Shown here: positions 1,207-15,789 of the stretch, piece by piece | Position numbering within the stretch: position 1 is the first letter of the stretch | Layout: every line of letters begins with the position of its first letter | NCBI GenBank assembly: GCA_017461285.1 | Contig: JAFTYS010000148.1 | Coordinates: forward strand, 1 to 15,804 | DNA length: 15,804 nucleotides | Origin: Bacteroidales bacterium | GTDB lineage: Bacteria; Bacteroidota; Bacteroidia; Bacteroidales; UBA932 | Direction of reading: 5' to 3' | Position numbers and translations under genes: made by a program | Notes under the pieces: generated by a model | Databases searched by the model: none | Told to the model about the DNA's origin: nothing | What the model saw: only the letters and a program-made list of their open reading frames with translations

Positions 1207-2568
1207 ATGATACCTATGGCTAAAAGCAAGGCAAAGATATTGGTTGTGGATGACAACAGTGGAATAAGGGCGGCGCTTAAGGTGCTGCTGCCGATCCATT
1301 TCTCGCAGGTCGAAGTCATCCCGTCTCCAAACGAACTCATGAGCCGTCTGGCTGAATTCCGTCCTGACGTGGTTCTGCTGGACATGAATTTCCACACCGA
1401 CATAAATACTGGAAACGAAGGCCTGTTCTGGCTTTCTGAAATAAAGAAGCGCTGTCCGGATGTCGAAGTCGTTCTGTTTACCGCATATGCAGATATCGCC
1501 CTTGCGGTCGAAGGAATGAAGCGTGGGGCATTCGACTTCATCGTGAAGCCGTGGGACAATGAGAAGCTCGTCGATACATTGAAGGCGGCATACGACGGCC
1601 GCAACAAGGATTCGAAGGACGCGGCTTCAGTTCCGCCGTCGTCGGTAACCATGCTCTGGGGAAAGGGATCTGCGATGGCCTCAGTCCGCAAGACTGTCGA
1701 GAAGATCGCTCCGACCGACGCTACGGTGCTCATAACAGGAGAGAACGGTACGGGAAAGGATGTGCTTGCCGGCGAGATCCACCGCATGTCCGAACGTGCA
1801 TTCAGGCCTATGGTCTGCGTCGATGCCGGCGCACTGACGGAGACGCTTTTCGAGAGCGAGCTTTTCGGCCATGTCAAGGGCGCGTTCACTGATGCCCATG
1901 CCGACCATGTCGGCAAATTCGAGCAGGCGGACGGCACTACCCTCTTCCTCGACGAGATCGGCAACATCCCTCTTCATCTCCAGTCAAAGCTCCTGAGGGC
2001 CATCCAGAACAGATGCATCACCAGAGTCGGAGACACAAAGTGCATCCCTGTGGATATCAGGCTCATATGCGCTACCAATAAGAATCTGGACAAGATGGTT
2101 CGCGACGGAGAGTTCCGCGAAGACCTGTACTACAGGATAAACACGATGCACCTCCACCTCCCTGCCCTGCGGGAAAGGAAGGACGAAATAATCCCGCTTG
2201 CCGAGATGTTCATAAGGAAGCACGCGGAAAAGTACAGACGCCCGGTGATCGGACTGACGGAAGATGCGGCAGAAGTCCTGATGAACCATAATTGGGGCGG
2301 CAACATACGCGAACTGCAGAACTGCATCGAGAAGGCGGTCATACTCTCCGAAGGCTCGACCCTTTCCGCTTCGGACATCGAGCTCCCTTCGGGAGGAAAT
2401 GCGCCGGCCCCTCCGGGCACTGGCGCAGGCGACACCCTGGAGGAGACGGAAGAAAAGGCTATACGCGCAGCTATGGCAAGATACGGCGGCAATCTGTCGA
2501 TGGTGGCGAAGTCGCTGGAAATAAGCAGGCCGACCCTGTATGCCAAGTTGAAGAAGTATAACATATAG
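1207..2568 (+). CDS. Sigma-54-dependent response regulator, NtrC family
   Basis: This is a cytoplasmic transcription activator of sigma-54 (RpoN) promoters, controlled by phosphorylation. The N-terminal receiver domain (about residues 9-125) has the acidic pair D15/D16, the phospho-acceptor D59 (LLDMNF) and K114. The AAA+ domain (about 150-390) has Walker A GENGTGKD at 178-185, the sigma-54-contacting loop at 225-230 and Walker B LFLDEI with D249/E250. A Fis-type helix-turn-helix fills about residues 411-453. The loop reads GAFTDA instead of the textbook GAFTGA. The 453-residue length is normal for the family. The start is uncertain: ATG 1207 would leave a leader of only a few bases after the predicted promoter, whereas ATG 1216 gives MAKSKAKILVVDD and a more usual leader. 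The gene lies 7 bp upstream of its probable partner kinase. No sigma-54 promoter was found in this window, so its targets are probably elsewhere. Confidence 0.95.
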   Translation: MIPMAKSKAKILVVDDNSGIRAALKVLLPIHFSQVEVIPSPNELMSRLAEFRPDVVLLDMNFHTDINTGNEGLFWLSEIKKRCPDVEVVLFTAYADIALAVEGMKRGAFDFIVKPWDNEKLVDTLKAAYDGRNKDSKDAASVPPSSVTMLWGKGSAMASVRKTVEKIAPTDATVLITGENGTGKDVLAGEIHRMSERAFRPMVCVDAGALTETLFESELFGHVKGAFTDAHADHVGKFEQADGTTLFLDEIGNIPLHLQSKLLRAIQNRCITRVGDTKCIPVDIRLICATNKNLDKMVRDGEFREDLYYRINTMHLHLPALRERKDEIIPLAEMFIRKHAEKYRRPVIGLTEDAAEVLMNHNWGGNIRELQNCIEKAVILSEGSTLSASDIELPSGGNAPAPPGTGAGDTLEETEEKAIRAAMARYGGNLSMVAKSLEISRPTLYAKLKKYNI

Positions 2569-2575
2569 TAGAAGA

Positions 2576-3787
2576 ATGGCAGAAATCCATGTCATACTTA
2601 TCGTGATTGCGACAGTTTCAGCGACTGCCGCAATTGCTTCTTTAATCACCTCCCGCAGAATGCGCAAGAAAGTCGCATACATGCTGGATGCGCTTGAAGA
2701 CAAGGAATTGAATTTCCGCTTCGACGAGAGCCGGTTCTTAGGAAGAAGGTTCAACCGTACCCTGAACCGCTTGAGAGGCATCTTCGATAAGGAAAGGCAT
2801 GAGATCATCGAACAGGAGAAATATTTCGGACTGATGCTGGACCATGTCCGGACAGGCGTTGTCGTCGTCGAAGACAACGGACGCATCAACTACTGCAACA
2901 GCACAGCCCTGGCTATTCTGGGCATCGCTACCTTCGGCCACATACGTCAGCTCAGGACGGTGAGCCAGTCGCTTTATGAGGCCTTCCAGACCGTTACTGA
3001 CGGATCCCATGAGGAAAGGGCTAGCTACTACAATGAAAGCGGAAAAGTGACCATTTCACTTACCGCTTCAAATGCGAAGATCGGCAAAAGCAAGGTCAAG
3101 GTCGTCGCATTCAATGACATTAGTGATGAAATCGCAGAAAGCGAGCAGGAATCGTGGTCAAAGCTGATCAGAGTGCTGACGCATGAGATCATGAACACCG
3201 TCACCCCTATCGCTTCCTTGAGCGAGACCCTGCTTAAGTTTGACGGGGTAGACGGCGAGATAAGGAACGGCCTGGACACTATCTCACAGTCCTCGCGCAG
3301 CCTGATAAAGTTTGTCGACAGCTACAGGAATCTGACCAGGGTCGCTTCTCCGGTGAAGAAGGCGTTCTTCGTTCGCGAGCTGGCGGAGAGGGTGATAAAC
3401 CTGACAAAGGAGCAGGCGCTGATGGCGGGAGCCGTATGTACATATACTGAAAAATCGGAAGACATCCTGCTCTATGCCGACGAAGGACAGATCACGCAGA
3501 TACTTATCAATCTGGTAAAGAACGCGATCCAGGCAGGTGCGCGTAATGTAGGCATATCCGCAGACATAAACCTTTCCGAGCAGATAATCATAAACGTTGC
3601 CAACGACGGACGTCCCATCAGCAAGGAAAGCCAGGAAGAGATCTTCGTGCCTTTCTATACGACCAAACAGGAAGGTACGGGCATCGGTCTGAGCCTGTCT
3701 CGCCAGATCATGCGCATGCATAACGGCACCCTGACGCTCAACCGAAGCGACGAAAAAGGAACGATATTCACATTATTATTCAAATAG
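2576..3787 (+). CDS. PAS-containing sensor histidine kinase, NtrB-like
   Basis: This is the probable partner kinase of the preceding sigma-54 regulator. One hydrophobic segment at about residues 4-25 is followed at once by basic residues, so there is essentially no periplasmic sensor and the signal is probably read inside the cell or membrane. A linker leads to a PAS domain at about 84-185. The H-box RVLTHEIMNTVTP places the phosphorylated histidine at H203. The ATP-binding domain has the N-box LINLVKNAIQAG (N316), the G1 box NDGRP (D344) and the G2 box GTGIGLSLS starting at 367. All residues needed for activity appear present. It starts 7 bp after the regulator stop, so the two are almost certainly co-transcribed. 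The PAS ligand cannot be predicted. Confidence 0.94.
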   Translation: MAEIHVILIVIATVSATAAIASLITSRRMRKKVAYMLDALEDKELNFRFDESRFLGRRFNRTLNRLRGIFDKERHEIIEQEKYFGLMLDHVRTGVVVVEDNGRINYCNSTALAILGIATFGHIRQLRTVSQSLYEAFQTVTDGSHEERASYYNESGKVTISLTASNAKIGKSKVKVVAFNDISDEIAESEQESWSKLIRVLTHEIMNTVTPIASLSETLLKFDGVDGEIRNGLDTISQSSRSLIKFVDSYRNLTRVASPVKKAFFVRELAERVINLTKEQALMAGAVCTYTEKSEDILLYADEGQITQILINLVKNAIQAGARNVGISADINLSEQIIINVANDGRPISKESQEEIFVPFYTTKQEGTGIGLSLSRQIMRMHNGTLTLNRSDEKGTIFTLLFK

Positions 3788-7156: not shown

Positions 7157-7855
7157 ATGGGAAAACTTTATGATCTGCTGAAGGAGGATTATCGTGTCAA
7201 GGAAGGTCTTAACACGTGCATAAACTGCGGTACATGTACTGCAATCTGTCCTGCTGCAGAGTTCTACAGATATGATCCGCGCAAGATTGTGGACACCGTC
7301 CAGCGCGGAGATGACGATGAGATCGAGGCTCTGCTCAAGAGCGATACGATCTGGTATTGCGGTGAATGTCTTTCCTGTCTGACCAGATGTCCGCGAAAGA
7401 ACGGTCCGGGTCTGGTAATAATGGCCCTGCGTAACCTTTCGGCAAAACTGGGATATTTCGTGGAGTCTGAGAAAGGAAGGCAGCTCTTCCCTCTTACAAG
7501 GATAATGACAGGAAACATCCTGAAATACGGCTACTGCATCCACCCCGATACCTTCAGCTGGGAAGACCATGTAGAGTCCGGACCTGTCTGGAAATGGCAC
7601 ACAGAGCATCTGGAAGACAGTTATGCAAGACAAGGGGCGAACTTCAGAGGCAAGGGTCCCGGCATCCTCAGGGAGATACCGAAAGAGTCTCTCGACGAGC
7701 TGCAGAGCATATTTGATGTGACTGGAGCGACTGAAAGGATCGAGACTATAGAAAAATGTTCCCAGGCGAAGGCGAAGGAGATGGGCATGACGATGGATGA
7801 ATATTACCGCTACACATTCGAATACAGTTCGGACGACCATTTTAACAATGACTGA
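7157..7855 (+). CDS. HdrC-like iron-sulfur subunit with two [4Fe-4S] clusters
   Basis: This is a small electron-transfer subunit of an Hdr-like complex, expected to relay electrons between the flavoprotein (HdrA-like) and the CCG-type subunit (HdrB-like). Two ferredoxin motifs are visible: CINCGTCTAICP with C21, C24, C27 and C31, and CGECLSCLTRCP with C68, C71, C74 and C78. The 37-residue interval between motifs is normal for HdrC. At 232 residues it is somewhat longer than typical HdrC (about 190), and the C-terminal 110 residues carry no further cysteine pattern except two isolated cysteines. There is no signal peptide or membrane helix, so it is cytoplasmic. It is the first gene of the operon, and its stop at 7853-7855 lies two bases before the next start. 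The family call is sure; the electron partner is inferred. Confidence 0.88.
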   Translation: MGKLYDLLKEDYRVKEGLNTCINCGTCTAICPAAEFYRYDPRKIVDTVQRGDDDEIEALLKSDTIWYCGECLSCLTRCPRKNGPGLVIMALRNLSAKLGYFVESEKGRQLFPLTRIMTGNILKYGYCIHPDTFSWEDHVESGPVWKWHTEHLEDSYARQGANFRGKGPGILREIPKESLDELQSIFDVTGATERIETIEKCSQAKAKEMGMTMDEYYRYTFEYSSDDHFNND

Positions 7856-7857
7856 CA

Positions 7858-8928
7858 ATGATCTATCAAGGCAAACAGAATATATGGAGTGATTATCAGA
7901 AGGAGATTCCTGACGATCACTGGTATTATGTAAGAAGCTGCATCAGGCAGAATTTCTTCCCTGCTTCGGAGAAGATGTTCATGGAGATATGCAGGAATGT
8001 CCTTGGAAAGGATATATATGAAAATGAGCATCATACGACATGCGGAGGCATTGCGTACCACTGCGATACGATTCCGCAGGAGACTGTGATGACCATTGTC
8101 GCGCGCCAGTTCGCACTGATGACGGAAGCCGGATATGAGAACTATGTCGCTTCCTGCATCACTTCATTCGGCAACTATACCGAGATCCTGGAGACATGGA
8201 ACGAGTATCCCGAGCTGGAGGCGAAGATCCGCGAACTGCTATGGAAGGCATGCCGCAAGGAATTCAGGAAACCGAAGCATCTTGCCCATTCCAGCGACCT
8301 GATATACAAATTCAGGAACGAGATTGCAGAAAAGGCGAAGTTCCGCCTTGTAAACAAGGAGACAGGCGAGCCATTGCGAGTCGTCGAGCATATCGGCTGC
8401 CATTATGCGAAGATGTTCCCTTCCAAAGGCGTCGGAGGTGCCGAGTATCCGTATGTGCTCGCAGGCATGATAGAGTCATGGGGCGGAAATGTCATCGACT
8501 ATCCGGAACGCCGCCATTGCTGCGGCTACGGTTTCCGCCAGTACCATGTGAAAGCCAACAGAGGCTATTCGATTTCCAACACCCACAAGAAGTTCGAATC
8601 CATGGAGCCGTACAAGCCTGACATGATCATAACGAACTGTCCCGGATGTCCTTATTTTCTCGACAGATGGCAGTACGTCATTGCCGAGATGGAAGGAAAG
8701 ACATACGGGGAGAACGGCTTCGGAATACCTGTGTTCACATATGAGGAAGTGGCCGGCATGGTGCTGGGATATGATCCTTGGGACCTCGGTCTGCAGCTCC
8801 ATCAGGTTGCGGTGGAACCACTTCTCGACAAGATAGGAATCGAATACAGTCCTGAAGACAAATATAAGGGACTCAACAGGAAAGACATAATGAAACCGGA
8901 ACTTCCATCCGGAATCAGATGCTTCTGA
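7858..8928 (+). CDS. HdrB-like subunit (CCG domains, the first degenerate)
   Basis: HdrB subunits hold noncubane [4Fe-4S] clusters through CCG motifs and form the disulfide/thiol-handling site of heterodisulfide reductases. The second CCG module is complete: C181, the C221/C222 pair in RHCCGYG, then C261 and C264 in TNCPGCP. The first is altered. C28 is followed by TTCGG (only C62, with T61 in place of the partner cysteine) and SCITSFG (C100, with a serine at +3 in place of cysteine), plus an extra C69. At most one standard noncubane cluster is therefore expected. The length of 356 residues exceeds typical HdrB (about 290-300). It is cytoplasmic and sits between the HdrC-like and HdrA-like genes. 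The natural substrate cannot be CoM-S-S-CoB in this organism and is unknown. Confidence 0.87.
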   Translation: MIYQGKQNIWSDYQKEIPDDHWYYVRSCIRQNFFPASEKMFMEICRNVLGKDIYENEHHTTCGGIAYHCDTIPQETVMTIVARQFALMTEAGYENYVASCITSFGNYTEILETWNEYPELEAKIRELLWKACRKEFRKPKHLAHSSDLIYKFRNEIAEKAKFRLVNKETGEPLRVVEHIGCHYAKMFPSKGVGGAEYPYVLAGMIESWGGNVIDYPERRHCCGYGFRQYHVKANRGYSISNTHKKFESMEPYKPDMIITNCPGCPYFLDRWQYVIAEMEGKTYGENGFGIPVFTYEEVAGMVLGYDPWDLGLQLHQVAVEPLLDKIGIEYSPEDKYKGLNRKDIMKPELPSGIRCF

Positions 8929-8942
8929 TAAAACCCGGACTT

Positions 8943-9962
8943 ATGAATGAGATCGTAGTTATAGTAGGTGGCGGAATCGCCGGAATGGAGGCTGCAGCCC
9001 AGCTTCTGAAGCTCGGCCACTCCCCTATCATCATAGAAAAAAGCGACCGCCTTGGCGGACATGTAGGCAAGTGGAACATGCTTTTCCCTGACCTTACTCC
9101 GGCTAAGCAGGTGGTCGACGAACTGGCCGATTCATGCCGCGACGCAAATATATTCCTCAACACGGAGATTTCGTCGATCAACCGCCTTAAGGACAGATAC
9201 AACCTCATGCTGTCCAACGGAATATCCATAAGCACGAAATATATTCTTTTCGCGACCGGTTTCAACATGTTCCCGGCACAGAAGAAGGAAGAATACGGCT
9301 ATGGTATTTATGATCATGTGATTACGAATGCCGACCTGGAGCATTGGATGAATGGAAATGCAGACAGGCGCATAGACTCGTCCGGTATGAAGACGATAGG
9401 ATTCGTGCATTGCGTAGGATCGCGCGATGAAAAATCGAGGAACCCGCAATGTTCAAAGGTATGCTGCATTACAGCCATCAAGCAGGCGATCGAACTCAAG
9501 AACATGTATCCTGATGCGCAGATCTACTGTTTCTATATGGACCTGCGCCTCTTCGGCAAGAAGTTCGAGGATTTCTATACAAAGGCGCAGCGCGACCATG
9601 GAATCCATTTCATCAGAGGACGCGTTTCGGAGGTTAGCGAAGCCATGGACGGACGTCTTGTCGTCAAGGCGGAAGACACTCTGATCGGCAAGCCGCTCAA
9701 GGTGTCGGTGGACCTGCTTGTGCTCATGGCGGGCATGGCATGCAACCCTGACAGCGAGAAGATTGCATCGCAGATAGCCCTTCCGATCGATACGGACGGT
9801 TTTCTCAAGAGCAGTGACAACATCATCCATATAACTTCATCCGCAAAGAAAGGGGTCTTCTATGCCGGTGCTTGCACCGGTCCGAAGACTGTTCCGGAAA
9901 CATTGGCAGAGGCACGTTCTGCAGCTCTGGACATCCACACTGCGATAATAAAGGAGAAATGA
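8943..9962 (+). CDS. HdrA-like FAD-dependent oxidoreductase (short form)
   Basis: This is the flavoprotein core of an Hdr-like complex, passing electrons between a soluble donor or acceptor and the iron-sulfur subunits. The chosen start (339 residues) opens directly into the FAD-binding Rossmann motif, with G9, G11 and G14 and the ribose-binding acid E32. An in-frame ATG at 8919 would add eight residues and overlap the previous gene by 10 bases. The HdrA signature FVHCVGSRDE, then CSKVCCITAIKQA, supplies C157, C170, C174 and C175, the likely ligands of the HdrA-type [4Fe-4S] cluster. The C-terminal GVFYAGACTGPKTVPETL is typical of HdrA. Methanogen HdrA is about 650 residues and has extra ferredoxin domains. 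These are absent here, as in QmoA and sHdrA, so classical ferredoxin-coupled bifurcation by this subunit alone is doubtful. Confidence 0.9.
   Translation: MNEIVVIVGGGIAGMEAAAQLLKLGHSPIIIEKSDRLGGHVGKWNMLFPDLTPAKQVVDELADSCRDANIFLNTEISSINRLKDRYNLMLSNGISISTKYILFATGFNMFPAQKKEEYGYGIYDHVITNADLEHWMNGNADRRIDSSGMKTIGFVHCVGSRDEKSRNPQCSKVCCITAIKQAIELKNMYPDAQIYCFYMDLRLFGKKFEDFYTKAQRDHGIHFIRGRVSEVSEAMDGRLVVKAEDTLIGKPLKVSVDLLVLMAGMACNPDSEKIASQIALPIDTDGFLKSSDNIIHITSSAKKGVFYAGACTGPKTVPETLAEARSAALDIHTAIIKEK
9951..9956 (+). promoter_or_regulatory. Ribosome binding site deciding the start of the second HdrC-like gene
   Basis: AAGGAG is a strong Shine-Dalgarno sequence, which is unusual in this window. It leaves 5 bases to the ATG at 9962 and only 2 bases to the ATG at 9959, so 9962 is preferred. 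The start overlaps the stop codon of the HdrA-like gene (TGA at 9960-9962), suggesting translational coupling. Confidence 0.6.
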
Positions 9963-10300
9963 TGAACATATTCGGATTCAGATTGTCGGCAAGTTCTGCC
10001 ATAGATATGGACAAGGTGGACAGGACCTTGTTCGATAAGCTGTGCGCAGAAGAGCCTGATGCAAGGCGCTGCATGTCCTGCGGTTCCTGCAGCGCGACCT
10101 GTCCTGCCGGAGAGTTCACAGGGATGAGCGTAAGAAAGGTTCTTCATAACCTTCAGAGAGGAAAGGAACGCGAAGCTCTGAAGATGGTTTCATCATGCAT
10201 GCTTTGCGGGAAATGCAATATGGTCTGCCCTAGAGGCATAAACACGAGACATCTGATCCTGTCAGTCTGCAGGATCTATAAAACGGAGGAAAGCCGATGA
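9962..10300 (+). CDS. Second HdrC-like protein, two [4Fe-4S] clusters
   Basis: This is a compact 112-residue electron-transfer protein, essentially just the HdrC core. The cluster motifs are CMSCGSCSATCP (C37, C40, C43, C47) and CMLCGKCNMVCP (C79, C82, C85, C89). An open frame extends back to 9872, but that part lies inside the HdrA-like gene, and the Shine-Dalgarno supports a start at 9962 (or 9959). It overlaps the previous stop by one base, and its own TGA overlaps the next ATG (ATGA at 10297-10300), so the three products are probably made in a fixed ratio. Being next to the membrane-bound HdrD-like fusion, it is the likely electron link between flavoprotein and membrane subunit, in the way that C2 pairs with B2 in sHdr systems. 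That pairing is inferred. Confidence 0.87.
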   Translation: MNIFGFRLSASSAIDMDKVDRTLFDKLCAEEPDARRCMSCGSCSATCPAGEFTGMSVRKVLHNLQRGKEREALKMVSSCMLCGKCNMVCPRGINTRHLILSVCRIYKTEESR

Positions 10301-12105
10301 GAGATCTATACCCGTCAGGATTCGACAGTTTCATCCTTCCGTTCATGATAGGAATGACCTTCGTGCTGTGCTGGTGCGGAATCGGTGCCGTACGCGTCAT
10401 TGCCGAGCTCGACCGTGAAGACAGAAAGAAGTTCTTCCTGTCATTCCTTAATCCGAAGATACTCGGCAAGAACATCAGGGACTGGTTCTGCGACTGTCTG
10501 TTCCATGTAAAGCTGTGGAAGAGGAACAAGCTGCTTGGATACATGCACTCCAGTATCGCTTTCGGATGGTTCATGATCATCGTCATTGGACATATAGAGG
10601 TATTCATATATACTCCCGAAAGGATACACAGGATGTGGTATCCGATCTTCTTCAGGTACTTTGTCGCTGTCACGGAGAGCACGATGAAGGGTTCGTTCTT
10701 CTTCTTCCTGATGGACTTCTTCCTTCTGATGATTCTCAGCGGCATCATCCTGGCCATGGTCAAACGTGTCCGTTCACGTCTTTTCGGCATGCGAAGGACT
10801 ACAAGAGCCAGTCTGACAGACCTGATAGGACTATACGCTTTGTGGTCAATTTTCCCTTTGAGGCTTCTTGCGGAAGGCTTTACCGCAGATATAAGCGGCG
10901 GCTCTTTCCTTACGAAGTCTCTTAATATGGTGCTCCATTCCTTCATGAGCGATTCCATGAACGCTCTGCCGGTATGGTGGGCATACTCCATCGCATTGGG
11001 TGTCTTCATGTGCATCCTGCCGTTCAGCAGATACATGCACATACCTGCTGAAATCCTCCTTATTCCTTTGAGAAACGCCGGAATCAAGCTCAAGCATGAG
11101 GACAAGGGTGTAGCCAGGGCAGAACTGTATTCCTGTCCGAGCTGCGGTGTCTGCATCGACACATGTCCGCTGAGCGCTGTGCCGGCGAATTCGAGGGATG
11201 CTACGGTATATCTTAACCGCCAGCTCAAACGTCACAATGAGAAGAGGATAGACCAGATAAGCGAGAAATGCATGCTTTGCGGCAAATGCAGCGTGGTATG
11301 TCCTGTCGGCGTGGAAGGTGACAAGATAAGGATCGCCCATCGCTCCAGAAAGAAATACAGCATTGCCCATGACTACTCTCTGATAGATGAAGGAAAGTTC
11401 ATCGGAAGCATGACGGAGAAAAGGCGCGTGCTGTACTTCATGGGATGTATGACCGCACTTACTCCTGCCATCAGAAAGGCCGTGACTGCAATCATGGACA
11501 AGGCGGGGGAAGATTATACGATAATGGACGGCGACGGCGGCATCTGCTGCGGAAGGCCGATGCTTGTCGCGGGAAGGAAGGATGCTGCTATGGAAATGAT
11601 AGAGAAGAACACGAAGATCATCAAGGCTTCCGGAGCATCAGTTCTGCTGGTGAACTGCCCTATCTGCTATAAGATATTCAAGGAAAACTATTCTCTTGAA
11701 GGTATAGAGATACTTCATCATACGGAGTATATAGACAGGCTCGTCAGTGAGGGCAGGATCGCCATCGACAGATCGGAGACGAAATATGTCTACCACGATC
11801 CGTGCGAACTTGGCAGAGGATGCGGCATATACGACCAGCCTCGTAATGTCATCGCTGCCGCGGGAACATTGGTTGAAGCCGATGTCAACGGCAAGGAAAG
11901 CATCTGCTGCGGCGGAAGCATCGGAAGTCTCAGCCTCGGATTCGATAAGCGCAAGGCGCTTACAGAAAACGCTCTGAAGCACCTTACCTGCAGTTCACCT
12001 GACGTGATAGTGACTGCCTGTCCTTTGTGCAAGACCACATTCAACCGTTATTCAGACCGTCCTGTGGCAGATATTGCAGAAGTTACTGCCGAAAGACTGA
12101 CTTAG
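10297..12105 (+). CDS. Membrane HdrE-HdrD fusion: diheme cytochrome b plus CCG catalytic domain
   Basis: This 602-residue protein appears to couple a CCG-type redox site to the membrane quinone pool. Residues 1 to about 255 hold five hydrophobic helices (about 12-34, 84-104, 131-157, 174-190 and 218-245) with histidines H84, H99, H214 and H248, suited to bind two b hemes as in NarI/HdrE/DsrM. Next come two [4Fe-4S] motifs, CPSCGVCIDTCP (C280-C290) and CMLCGKCSVVCP (C325-C335). Then come two complete CCG modules: C384, C417/C418, C454, C457 and C503, C537/C538, C575, C578. This is HdrE and HdrD (or DsrM and DsrK) in one chain, whereas most known systems use two proteins. The iron-sulfur part most likely faces the cytoplasm. 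It overlaps the preceding gene by 4 bases and ends the operon. The substrate is unknown; menaquinone as partner is inferred. Confidence 0.88.
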   Translation: MRDLYPSGFDSFILPFMIGMTFVLCWCGIGAVRVIAELDREDRKKFFLSFLNPKILGKNIRDWFCDCLFHVKLWKRNKLLGYMHSSIAFGWFMIIVIGHIEVFIYTPERIHRMWYPIFFRYFVAVTESTMKGSFFFFLMDFFLLMILSGIILAMVKRVRSRLFGMRRTTRASLTDLIGLYALWSIFPLRLLAEGFTADISGGSFLTKSLNMVLHSFMSDSMNALPVWWAYSIALGVFMCILPFSRYMHIPAEILLIPLRNAGIKLKHEDKGVARAELYSCPSCGVCIDTCPLSAVPANSRDATVYLNRQLKRHNEKRIDQISEKCMLCGKCSVVCPVGVEGDKIRIAHRSRKKYSIAHDYSLIDEGKFIGSMTEKRRVLYFMGCMTALTPAIRKAVTAIMDKAGEDYTIMDGDGGICCGRPMLVAGRKDAAMEMIEKNTKIIKASGASVLLVNCPICYKIFKENYSLEGIEILHHTEYIDRLVSEGRIAIDRSETKYVYHDPCELGRGCGIYDQPRNVIAAAGTLVEADVNGKESICCGGSIGSLSLGFDKRKALTENALKHLTCSSPDVIVTACPLCKTTFNRYSDRPVADIAEVTAERLT

Positions 12106-12526: not shown

Positions 12527-12652
12527 CATCTGTAATGTTTGTTCATAGTTGCGACATTTCCCCATTCCGGGCAATGCCGCCTTTACCGCTGTTGCGATAT
12601 ACGCATCGGCTCATCACACATATTACAAAAACTAAATGATCATCAAACTATT

Positions 12653-13099
12653 ATGGAAAAGACATTCGTCAGAGTACGCTCTGCAAAAGATATCATATTA
12701 TTCGCATCACTCATCATCATCGGATCAGTTCTTGTCGCTTTGCCGACAGGAGCCGGCGTCAATATAGCAGGTTTCTTCATGATCTTTGCCGGACTGATCA
12801 TCGCACTTCTTGTCAAGACAGGATACAAGGACGCTGAAACCGGAGTAAAGTATCAGAAGACAGAACATTACTTCCAGCAGGCCATGAATTCAGTAATTTC
12901 GTCTGCACTTGAATCAAAGCCCGGATCGATTGACCTGAAGGAGGCTGACAAAGGAAATGCGGTCAAGCTTGACATCTACCACAGCAAGGCCTCAGGAAAG
13001 GCATACCTGCAGCTTTTCGAATACGTGCCATACACTTACGAGCCATGCTCAAGGATTTATGAGTATCAGATTACAGATGTAGAAAAGCTCATCAGGTAG
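12653..13099 (+). CDS. Small two-helix membrane protein of unknown function
   Basis: This 148-residue protein is of no recognised family. Two adjacent hydrophobic segments (about residues 12-29 and 34-52, separated by PTGAG) form a membrane hairpin, followed by a soluble domain of about 95 residues rich in tyrosine and lysine that ends in YEYQITDVEKLIR. The frame is open back to 12539, but the upstream part has no promoter-consistent start. ATG 12653, in an A-rich context and opening straight into MEKTFVRVRSAKD, is the better choice. It lies two bases upstream of the Ca2+/Na+ antiporter gene, so the two are co-transcribed and a role in ion or membrane homeostasis is possible, but that is guilt by association only. 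Bases 12527-12652 hold no recognisable gene or clear promoter. Confidence 0.68.
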   Translation: MEKTFVRVRSAKDIILFASLIIIGSVLVALPTGAGVNIAGFFMIFAGLIIALLVKTGYKDAETGVKYQKTEHYFQQAMNSVISSALESKPGSIDLKEADKGNAVKLDIYHSKASGKAYLQLFEYVPYTYEPCSRIYEYQITDVEKLIR

Positions 13100-13101
13100 G
13101 T

Positions 13102-14052
13102 ATGGAGTACATAATACTGTTGGTGACTCTGGCAGGAATAGTATACGGTGCGGATTTCCTCGTGACCGGGTCTGTTTCGCTTGCCAGAAGATTCAAGATC
13201 TCGGACTTTGTCATAGGAGCAGCGATAGTCGGCATAGGAACGTCGATGCCGGAATTTGTCGTGAGCTTCATAGGCGCGCTCAACGGCAATGCAGACGTGG
13301 CCATAGGAAATGTCGTAGGCTCGAACATATTCAACATTCTAGGCATATTGGGCTGTACGTCGATCCTTTTTCCTGTGTTCATAGACAAGAAGAACATGAG
13401 GTTTGAAATTCCTTTGTGCATAGGTCTGTCCATCCTGCTGGCGATCCTTGCATTCAACTTCTTCAACGGATCTGCAGCGAGGATAGGAAGATTGGACGGA
13501 CTCCTTCTTCTTGCAGTCTTTGCCGGTTTCATGTGGTATTCGTTTTATCGCGACAGGAAGAATGCCGTGGCTTCCGGAGACAAGACTCAGGAGGACAACA
13601 CTCCCCTATGGCTTGCGATAGTCAAGGTTGTGGGCGGACTTGCCCTGCTGGTCACAAGCTGCGACCTGTTTGTAAACAATGCCGTAGCTGTGGCAAAATC
13701 GTTCGGAGTCAATGATGCATTCATCTCGCTTACCCTTATCGCATGCGGTACTTCCCTGCCAGAACTTGCTGCGTCCATTACTGCCGCAGTGAAGAAGAAC
13801 AATCAGATGGCATTGGGTAACATAGTCGGTTCAAATATCTTCAACATAAGCCTGATACTCGGACTTTGCGCGCAGGTAAGGCCGCTTACATCTGCCGGCA
13901 TCACTATAGCCGATTATATCGTGATGATAGCAGCCGCAGTCCTTCTGATGCTTTTCGGAATCAAGGGAAAGATCGGAAGAGCCGGTGGCGTACTTATGGT
14001 CATAGGTTTTGTTGCCTACACATGGTATCTTGTAACAAATCAAATCGCATAA
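13102..14052 (+). CDS. Calcium/sodium antiporter, CaCA superfamily (YrbG-like)
   Basis: This is an inner-membrane exchanger that expels Ca2+ (or another cation) in return for Na+ or K+. The two inverted alpha repeats that define the family are obvious: GIGTSMPEFVVS followed by GNVVGSNIFNILGI (key acid E51), and CGTSLPELAASI followed by GNIVGSNIFNISLI (key acid E221). About ten hydrophobic helices fill the 316 residues, close to the roughly 325 of E. coli YrbG. A short hydrophilic loop (about residues 150-168) separates the halves. It follows the small membrane protein by two bases and precedes the phosphate transporter by three, so it is the middle gene of a three-gene operon. Ion specificity cannot be fixed from the sequence. 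Confidence 0.94.
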   Translation: MEYIILLVTLAGIVYGADFLVTGSVSLARRFKISDFVIGAAIVGIGTSMPEFVVSFIGALNGNADVAIGNVVGSNIFNILGILGCTSILFPVFIDKKNMRFEIPLCIGLSILLAILAFNFFNGSAARIGRLDGLLLLAVFAGFMWYSFYRDRKNAVASGDKTQEDNTPLWLAIVKVVGGLALLVTSCDLFVNNAVAVAKSFGVNDAFISLTLIACGTSLPELAASITAAVKKNNQMALGNIVGSNIFNISLILGLCAQVRPLTSAGITIADYIVMIAAAVLLMLFGIKGKIGRAGGVLMVIGFVAYTWYLVTNQIA

Positions 14053-14055
14053 ATA

Positions 14056-15789
14056 ATGGGAATACTTCAGATCTTTACATTATTGGGAGCATTGGGAATG
14101 TTCCTGTACGGAATGAACATGATGAGTTCCGGACTTCAGAAAGCAGCCGGTGACAGACTTCGCGGACTTCTTTCTGCAATGACGTCCAATCCTTTCAAAG
14201 GAGTCCTTACAGGTTTGGGAATTACGTCTATAATCCAGTCATCTTCAGCTACTACCGTGATGGTAGTGAGCTTTGTCAACGCCGGCCTCCTGACTCTAGC
14301 CCAGGCAATAGGAGTCATCATGGGAGCCAATATCGGTACGACCGTAACCGCATGGCTCGTTTCATGGCTCGGATTCAAGGCGGACATTTCGATCCTGGCA
14401 GTTCCATTGATGCTTCTTGGATTCCTGTTCTCGAATTCCAAGAAGAACCAGCGCCAGAACATAGGAGAACTGATAGTCGGATTCTGTCTCCTTTTCCTTG
14501 GTCTCTCGTTCATGAAGGAATCTGTTCCTGATCTCAACGAAACTCCGCAGGTCCTCGAGTTCGTCAAGACATGGTCCGGCCACGGCTTCGGTTCCGTGCT
14601 GATCTTCCTGGCTTTCGGTACTGCTCTTACTCTTGTACTTCAATCGTCATCTGCTACCATGGCCATAACCCTGATCATGCTCAGCATGGGATGGATTCCG
14701 TTCCCTATGGCATGCGCAATGGTTCTTGGTGAAAATATCGGTACCACCATCACTGCAAACATCGCGGCTGCTGTCGGAAACACACAGGCGAAGAGAGCAG
14801 CGATGTCGCATACGATATTCAATGTGTTCGGCGTCATCTGGGCTCTGATTTTCTTCAAGCCTTTTCTTGCCCTCGTCGGAAAGATCATCGCACTGTTCGG
14901 CCTTCCTGACCCCTCTGCAGAAGGTTTCGCAGTAATTGCTCCGGATTCTGCTCAGGGAACAGCTGCATTGTACGGACTCTCTATGCTCCATACCCTTTTC
15001 AATACTATCAATACATTGATACTGATATGGTTCACGAAGTATATCGAGAAGTGTGTGGTATGGATAATCAAGGCTCCGAAGAATCAGGAAAATGACTCTT
15101 TCCGTCTCAAGTATATTTCCGCTGGTCCTCTTGCGACACCGGAACTTGCAACTGAGCAGGCCTTTGACGAGATCATCCATTTTGCCGAAATTTCACGCAA
15201 CGGATTGCTGTATGCCCGTCAGGCCATACTTGAAACAGACAGGGACAAGTTTGAAGAGCTCCGTTCGAAGCTGGTCAAATATGAAGAGATATCAGACCGG
15301 ATAGAATATGAGATTGCAAGCTTCCTCAATGCTGTTTCTGCCGGTGATATCAGCGCTGAAACTTCGGCGCGGATCAAGGCCATGTACAGGATCATAGGCG
15401 AGCTCGAGTCTCTGGGAGATTCCGGAGAGTCTATCAGCCGCATACTGTCCCGAAAGAATATCCACAACAAGGCATTCGGACCTGAAACGGTCAGGAAACT
15501 TGAGGACATGACAGATGCAGTTGACGGTGCATACAAAGCCATGATCACAAACCTCAAGGCTGCACATAAGGGCGAGCTTGCGGAAATATCTAACGCATGC
15601 AATGCCGAAGACCGCATAAACAATCTCAGGAACTATCTCAGGGAGTCAGAGATTGAGGAGATTGAAAGCGGAAGGAAGAGTTATGAGGCAAGTGTCTACT
15701 TCATGGATATTGTCAGCGAACTTGAAAAGATGGGCGATTTCATGATCAATATATCTCAGACACTTGAAAGAACATTCATCAGAAGATAA
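14056..15789 (+). CDS. Na+/phosphate cotransporter family protein with PhoU-like C-terminal domain
   Basis: This is a membrane protein of the NptA/YjbB type, moving phosphate together with Na+. The family's inverted repeats are marked by QSSSATT (61-67) and QSSSATM (196-202), each followed by a GANIGTT or GENIGTT motif. Eight or more hydrophobic helices span residues 1-335. The last 220 residues (about 355-575) are helical and charged and match the PhoU-like domain that many bacterial members carry, thought to tune transport to phosphate state. The 577-residue length is normal. The gene is complete; 15 bases remain to the window edge and no terminator is visible. Together with the cation antiporter it suggests a phosphate/cation homeostasis unit. 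Import versus export is not readable; the YjbB type can export phosphate. Confidence 0.94.
   Translation: MGILQIFTLLGALGMFLYGMNMMSSGLQKAAGDRLRGLLSAMTSNPFKGVLTGLGITSIIQSSSATTVMVVSFVNAGLLTLAQAIGVIMGANIGTTVTAWLVSWLGFKADISILAVPLMLLGFLFSNSKKNQRQNIGELIVGFCLLFLGLSFMKESVPDLNETPQVLEFVKTWSGHGFGSVLIFLAFGTALTLVLQSSSATMAITLIMLSMGWIPFPMACAMVLGENIGTTITANIAAAVGNTQAKRAAMSHTIFNVFGVIWALIFFKPFLALVGKIIALFGLPDPSAEGFAVIAPDSAQGTAALYGLSMLHTLFNTINTLILIWFTKYIEKCVVWIIKAPKNQENDSFRLKYISAGPLATPELATEQAFDEIIHFAEISRNGLLYARQAILETDRDKFEELRSKLVKYEEISDRIEYEIASFLNAVSAGDISAETSARIKAMYRIIGELESLGDSGESISRILSRKNIHNKAFGPETVRKLEDMTDAVDGAYKAMITNLKAAHKGELAEISNACNAEDRINNLRNYLRESEIEEIESGRKSYEASVYFMDIVSELEKMGDFMINISQTLERTFIRR

Follow-up and report, generated by a model that had tools for sequence, protein, structure and literature searches.

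A candidate sulfite-supplying Hdr-like complex encoded with sulfonolipid genes in Bacteroidales

The 15,804-nucleotide contig of a Bacteroidales bacterium analyzed here (henceforth, the window, that is, this whole stretch of DNA) carries a five-gene operon that encodes relatives of heterodisulfide reductase (Hdr) subunits: HdrC1, HdrB1, a short HdrA, HdrC2 and, last, an HdrD with a five-helix membrane domain in the same chain. In relatives of this bacterium, the Hdr genes are located next to or inside runs of genes for sulfonolipid synthesis, or else in the same genome, and this link is well supported. The proposed function, to which we assign a probability of about one half, is that of a menaquinone-linked complex resembling the sulfur-oxidizing sHdr that oxidizes reduced sulfur to sulfite for the production of cysteate. 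The original prediction, made from the window sequence alone, described the Hdr operon and missed the partner pathway.

All five genes are on the forward strand. HdrC1 (7157..7855; 232 amino acids (aa)) is an HdrC-like electron carrier with two 4Fe-4S motifs (C21/24/27/31 and C68/71/74/78), in which all eight cysteines are invariant among 97 aligned sequences; its match to NF041779 (E 1.5e-23) is under the model cut-off, as is that of the HdrB1-like subunit (7858..8928; 356 aa) to NF041780 (E 5.3e-38). The C-terminal CCG domain of HdrB1 (nucleotides 8398-8649) is intact, with C181, C221, C222, C261 and C264 invariant in 98 sequences. The N-terminal CCG domain (nucleotides 7939-8157) has only three invariant cysteines in the same alignment, C28, C62 and C100, of the usual five, and an unusual cluster is possible. 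HdrA (8919..9962, or from the ATG at 8943; 347 aa) is a short, HdrA2-like FAD (flavin adenine dinucleotide) protein without ferredoxin domains. Its cysteines C165, C178, C182 and C183 (nucleotides 9411-9467), invariant in 117 sequences, would bind one 4Fe-4S cluster. Residues 13-338 of HdrA match the 349-aa chain of 6tjr, an sHdrA, with E 2.4e-55, and the scores against 6tjr and methanogen HdrA are similar, 191 and 206 bits, respectively; the match to the methanogen Hdr model (E 7.7e-73) is far under the cut-off. The same holds for HdrB and HdrC in the methanogen HdrABC equivalog test, and HdrC1, HdrB1 and HdrA are therefore relatives of the methanogen proteins rather than the methanogen enzymes themselves. 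HdrC2 (9959/9962..10300; 112-113 aa) is another electron carrier with two 4Fe-4S motifs, and its eight cysteines are invariant in 88 sequences.

The families and gene order in the original prediction are thus as claimed. Within the operon, HdrC1 and HdrB1 are 2 bp apart, HdrB1 and HdrA overlap by 10 bp or are separated by 14 bp depending on the HdrA start, HdrA and HdrC2 overlap by 1-4 bp, and HdrC2 and HdrD by 4 bp. A scan for promoters and terminators yielded nothing beyond chance.

The last subunit, HdrD (10297..12105; 602 aa), combines within a single polypeptide a membrane domain of five long helices (nucleotides about 10297-11076), a Fer4 region with two 4Fe-4S clusters (about 11122-11313) and a pair of CCG domains (about 11428-11673 and 11794-12036), each of them intact and retained in 125 of the 125 aligned sequences. 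Over the whole length, the best fold match of HdrD is EtfD, in a fold list that lacked, for example, DsrMK and HdrDE; with the DsrK and QmoC models, HdrD scores far under the cut-off. Passages of PMC13083937 describe EtfD as a menaquinone reducer with one b heme liganded by His78 and His241. HdrD shares the five helices, the histidine pair, the two 4Fe-4S clusters and the two CCG domains, with His84 and His248, invariant in 125 of 125 sequences, as putative heme ligands judged by conservation and position. The diheme cytochrome b that had been predicted is unsupported: four histidines are kept in 39 close sequences, but position 99 is histidine in only 13 of the 46 sequences of a wider set, so that one b heme appears likelier than two.

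The order C1-B1-A-C2-D, noted originally for its resemblance to sHdr with a membrane-bound last subunit, is conserved among Bacteroidales relatives. Named genomes were scanned with the window HdrD as the query, and 80 of the resulting 105 loci were retained (the named loci; the organisms are labeled Bacteroidales, Bacteroidia, Bacteroidaceae, Muribaculum and Candidatus genera, such as Cryptobacteroides and Coprenecus). All 73 complete named loci show this order, and the remaining seven are cut at contig ends, including L055, which was scored as out of order solely through a match of the C1 query to C2. The nearest kin, L004, from the goat cecum metagenome-assembled genome RGIG1649, is 97-100% identical to the window across the five proteins. 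Of 46 additional Bacteroidales loci that carry HdrD, which make up a wider set, 38 have the same order, and the exceptions are A-C2-D without adjoining C1 and B1 (L124, L131, L199), C1-C2-D-B1-A (L160, L201), C1-C2-D (L185, L187) and one short contig (L188). In some families (L124, L131, L150), C1 and B1 are set apart from A-C2-D or B1 is separated from A by other genes, so that the module could be made up of two units.

The genes found beside Hdr in relatives belong, or probably belong, to the families of the sulfonolipid (capnine) pathway, namely, cysteate synthase, CFAT/SulA and 3-ketocapnine reductase (KCR). Clustering of the open reading frames in the flanks revealed a protein of about 429 aa encoded immediately 3' of HdrD, which is identified as cysteate synthase by TIGR03844 scores of 443 and 454 bits (in L009 and L068) against a cut-off of 324.9. 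A homolog directly follows HdrD in 59 of the 80 named loci and is found elsewhere in the locus in 4; in 15 loci, it is missing from the available stretch, and 2 more (L030, L042) are too short. Whole-genome searches for these 17 loci exceeded the TIGR03844 cut-off in every case (15/15 and 2/2), as did those of 37/37 other genomes, 54/54 altogether; where the stretch is short, a cysteate synthase scored as outside the locus might still be nearby. In L014, L016 and L017, all these genes form one run, VOC-CFAT-KCR-HdrC1-B1-A-C2-D-cysteate synthase, and in L005, VOC and CFAT are upstream of the Hdr genes. The labels CFAT and KCR reflect the family type combined with the gene company: in an NCBIfam scan, CFAT reaches no cut-off, its neighborhood being that of serine palmitoyltransferase and BioF, and the KCR-like short-chain dehydrogenase/reductase reaches only the cut-off of the general model of its family. 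The VOC protein (glyoxalase-type, about 356 aa) stands beside Hdr or sulfonolipid genes in several families (L014:3927-4997, L160:13169-14239, L185:7233-8303) and is possibly a thiol- or sulfur-handling partner.

In near-identical kin of the window, VOC-CFAT-KCR-cysteate synthase is located on a separate contig (G001:C70, L164; the G001 cysteate synthase scores 431 bits with TIGR03844, and G001 is taken as the same assembly as the L004 genome, given identical cysteate synthase coordinates). The Hdr and sulfonolipid units are split in this lineage, and hence the window alone conceals the link.

Elsewhere in Bacteroidales, the Hdr genes are accompanied by CFAT and a different, threonine-synthase-like pyridoxal phosphate protein, denoted CysDiv, which has 25% identity to the first type of cysteate synthase and falls under every listed family cut-off; from its gene company, CysDiv is possibly a second cysteate synthase (L156:13412-14641, L160:15450-16670). 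The arrangements vary: Hdr5-CFAT-CysDiv in family f24 (L203), CFAT-CysDiv-Hdr5 in f108 (L156), CFAT-CysDiv-KCR-VOC-C1-C2-D-B1-A in f81 (L160, L201) and VOC-C1-C2-D, where VOC is the only linked gene, in f2 (L185, L187). In an HdrD tree of 63 sequences (built by a quick method with SH-aLRT support), the linked loci form two separate clades, and the linked and unlinked labels change 7 times, at least 6 of these changes being forced by well-supported branches, with f2 placed among the linked loci solely for its VOC gene and the window counted as unlinked.

The second line of evidence is the apparent gap in sulfite supply. Cysteate synthase converts O-phosphoserine and sulfite to cysteate, and sulfite is usually derived from sulfate via CysD and CysH, both members of PF01507. 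O-phosphoserine is named as the substrate in PMC11211663 and PMC10191378, and the latter also mentions a homolog of the archaeal cysteate synthase in Alistipes and Odoribacter. We scored CysH/CysD as present at a PF01507 match of E <= 1e-20, a test that cannot separate CysD from CysH and under which some of the positive genomes show a single copy; the weak matches in G019 (E 3e-6) and G035 (E 8e-11) were counted as absences. At this threshold, none of 13 genomes grouped as linked (five of f1, three each of f2 and f81, and those of f24 and f108) has a PF01507 protein, G342 and G109 being marginal. In 9 of these 13, cysteate synthase, CysDiv or CFAT is in the Hdr locus (in G342, by positions only), and the grouping of the others is looser: the two units are apart in G001, VOC alone is present in G121 and G219, and none of the partners is found in the short locus of G002. 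Among 50 of the 80 genomes behind the named loci, chosen for spread, 46 lack a match at this threshold; the positives are G404, G416, G425 and G442, and only G404 and G442 have both CysH-sized and CysD-sized frames. By the Pfam cut-off for PF01507, 7 of the same 50 are positive, three of them solely through weak matches in frames of 442-458 aa.

The broader comparison was made in an order-wide sample of 393 Bacteroidales genomes, with HdrD called at E <= 1e-60 and cysteate synthase by the TIGR03844 cut-off. The p values below overstate the evidence because the genomes share ancestry. Of the 103 genomes with cysteate synthase, PF01507 is missing from 18 of the 42 with HdrD and from 5 of the 61 without it (odds ratio 8.4, p 6e-5); 56 of these 61 carry a CysH/CysD-family protein, and in G252, one of the five exceptions, HdrB is located 2.2 kb from the contig start, so that the assembly may simply lack HdrD. 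No comparable association is seen in a control of genomes without a TIGR03844 match, where PF01507 is lacking in 7 of 24 with HdrD and 4 of 20 without (p 0.73); this control was picked by hand (24 of 67 HdrD-positive genomes and 20 of 210 HdrD-negative ones, the latter from a random 60), and some of its genomes encode a CysDiv-like protein. HdrD is present in 122 of the 393 genomes, in line with the idea of a module conserved in Bacteroidales, and together with cysteate synthase in 42 (expected 32.0, p 0.018). Eighteen genomes from six families carry a close CFAT (73-93% identity), and 16 of these genomes encode HdrD, compared with 106 of the 375 others (p 3e-7). The CFAT-like matches at 56-62% identity, found in most of 278 genomes, are probably general paralogs and were not taken as a sign of sulfonolipid synthesis; the linked loci of G109 and G377 carry such copies.

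From the gene content, motifs, HdrD fold, shared operons, co-occurrence and sulfite-supply gap observed here, we infer the formation of a complex, the direction of electron flow, the sulfur substrate and the sulfite product. The five proteins would form a complex at the cytoplasmic face of the membrane, anchored by HdrD. Electrons from sulfide, persulfide or thiol-bound sulfane would enter at HdrB1, where one CCG site is intact, and at the HdrA FAD. HdrC1 and HdrC2 would carry these electrons to the HdrD CCG clusters, from where they could pass through the two 4Fe-4S clusters and the single b heme to menaquinone. The sulfite produced would be used by cysteate synthase, followed by CFAT and 3-ketocapnine reductase, to make sulfonolipids, and the beneficiaries would be Bacteroidales without assimilatory sulfate reduction. 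In a more specific form, which we hold with slightly less confidence, the complex would be a biosynthetic, anaerobic counterpart of sHdr that dispenses with the lipoate-binding protein LbpA and turns sulfide or persulfide into sulfite for cysteate in gut Bacteroidales that lack sulfate assimilation.

Several observations weigh against this scheme. Order-level co-occurrence is weak, with 80 of the 122 HdrD genomes lacking a cysteate synthase over the cut-off, and 24 of the 42 genomes with both HdrD and cysteate synthase also carry CysH/CysD. Two f101 genomes (G202, G350) combine cysteate synthase and a close CFAT, yet HdrD and CysH/CysD are both missing; in G222, G303 and G366, a close CFAT and Hdr occur with no TIGR03844 match; and in G306, the linked locus is without C1 and B1, and the one HdrB is on a different contig. 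Finally, neither LbpA nor a sulfur carrier was identified. The weak co-occurrence implies that the Hdr module reaches beyond sulfonolipid synthesis, cysteate synthase as its universal partner being rejected on this ground, and sulfite supply may be one use among others.

The same breadth fits a general thiol/disulfide:menaquinone oxidoreductase for redox balance, with the sulfonolipid link reflecting co-regulation of membrane building and sulfur supply. The wide occurrence of HdrD, the scarcity of nearby sulfonolipid genes in most of the 46 wider loci and the two CCG domains that stay intact in every HdrD sequence are all compatible with this possibility, considering that the CCG sites of methanogen Hdr perform disulfide chemistry. 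We regard it as less likely than sulfite supply; it predicts neither the operon linkage in two clades with differing gene orders nor the complementarity with CysH/CysD. A further candidate role is lipid tailoring, in which an acyl intermediate on the way to sulfonolipids would be the electron-exchange partner of the complex, in the manner of EtfD, which couples fatty-acid oxidation to menaquinone through electron-transfer flavoprotein (ETF). The whole-length fold match to EtfD and the acyl ligase gene that adjoins the operon in the window point in this direction; the absence of CysH/CysD is not predicted by it, and no acyl-CoA dehydrogenase or ETF was recognized beside the operon in the partly annotated flanks. 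We consider this role improbable. Least probable of all is a coincidental linkage of an unrelated Hdr function, by chance or shared inheritance, which accords with the many Hdr loci that have no shared neighbor and with the separate contigs of the two units in the lineage of the window, yet has to contend with the same partners in two separate clades, a cysteate synthase in the locus or genome for 80 of 80 named loci and HdrD in 16 of the 18 close-CFAT genomes.

The acyl ligase in question is an AMP-binding acyl-CoA/ACP ligase (PF00501; 5291..7027, reverse strand) that is divergent from the Hdr operon. In L184, a relative with 29% identity adjoins KCR in a gene run with CysDiv and CFAT, and the ligase could conceivably supply activated fatty acid, a weakly connected possibility. 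A sigma-54 activator-type response regulator and a histidine kinase are encoded in tandem (1207-3787; labels read from the translations), upstream of a gene for an amylase-like lipoprotein. On the other side (12539-15789) are genes for an uncharacterized protein of 186 aa, a Na/Ca antiporter and a Na/Pi cotransporter-PhoU protein, and relatives of these are located upstream of the Hdr operon elsewhere, for example, in L009, L012, L013 and L015.

If the proposal of sulfite supply is correct, its implications extend beyond this operon. PMC9304779 reports an inflammation-suppressing effect of gut Bacteroidota sulfonolipids in mice. The word 'sulfite' is absent from the sulfonolipid papers PMC9304779, PMC11211663 and PMC10191378, and where gut anaerobes obtain sulfite accordingly appears to be an open question, one that a dedicated Hdr complex would resolve. 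Such a complex would represent a biosynthetic use of sHdr-type chemistry. It would also give a function to proteins that commonly bear the annotation 'CoB--CoM heterodisulfide reductase ... family protein', and would connect a class of lipids that act on the host with sulfide and quinone-based respiration, with the prediction of sulfide in and sulfonolipid out. A full-text search of open-licence papers found no description of an Hdr complex with the sulfonolipid pathway; complexes of this kind are already known, and it is the association with sulfonolipids that is not described, as far as the searched literature shows.

Among the known systems, a coenzyme M (CoM)/CoB heterodisulfide reductase is an unlikely counterpart. 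Sulfopyruvate decarboxylase (ComD) was over the cut-off in none of the 21 genomes searched, with four weaker matches, three of them in frames of 378-397 aa, which agrees with the original statement that these bacteria have no route to CoM. The mycobacterial EtfD, an ETF:menaquinone oxidoreductase, receives electrons from ETF, whereas here the partners are HdrA, B1, C1 and C2; etfAB was not recognized among the annotated neighbors of the operon (the flanks are partly annotated, and the genomes were not searched for etfAB). HdrDE, HmeCD, DsrMK and QmoABC share the coupling of an Hdr-type Fe-S subunit to a membrane cytochrome. This cytochrome is a separate subunit in the first three and is fused to an HdrC-like part in QmoC, whereas here the membrane domain is fused to HdrD.

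The closest parallel is the type I sHdr of Hyphomicrobium denitrificans, which likewise comprises C1, B1, a short A, C2 and a B2-type subunit and for which sulfite is the proposed product; the release of sulfite by sHdr is stated in passages of PMC12423496. The window HdrA is sHdr-like in being short, with one FAD domain and one cysteine-bound 4Fe-4S cluster. Type I is defined, in the relevant section of PMC11582611, by a C1-B1-A-H-C2-B2 core in one cluster, and genomes with shdr genes encode LbpA with very few exceptions, according to a passage of PMC10332631. The window operon differs in both respects: A and C2 overlap and so leave no H gene between them, and of 21 genomes searched for a protein of the GcvH family, which includes LbpA, 14 have one clear match, 1 has a marginal match and 6 (G222, G303, G019, G230, G372, G369) have none, with no match near Hdr and the proviso that the Pfam threshold could miss a distant LbpA. 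The G306 copy contains an in-frame TAA. The absence of a lipoate-binding protein near the operon, noted in the original prediction, thus extends to these relatives, and on these grounds the complex does not count as sHdr proper. The two systems differ further in the membrane fusion of the last subunit in the operon described here and in their setting: sHdr serves sulfur oxidation for energy, whereas this operon is linked to lipid biosynthesis.

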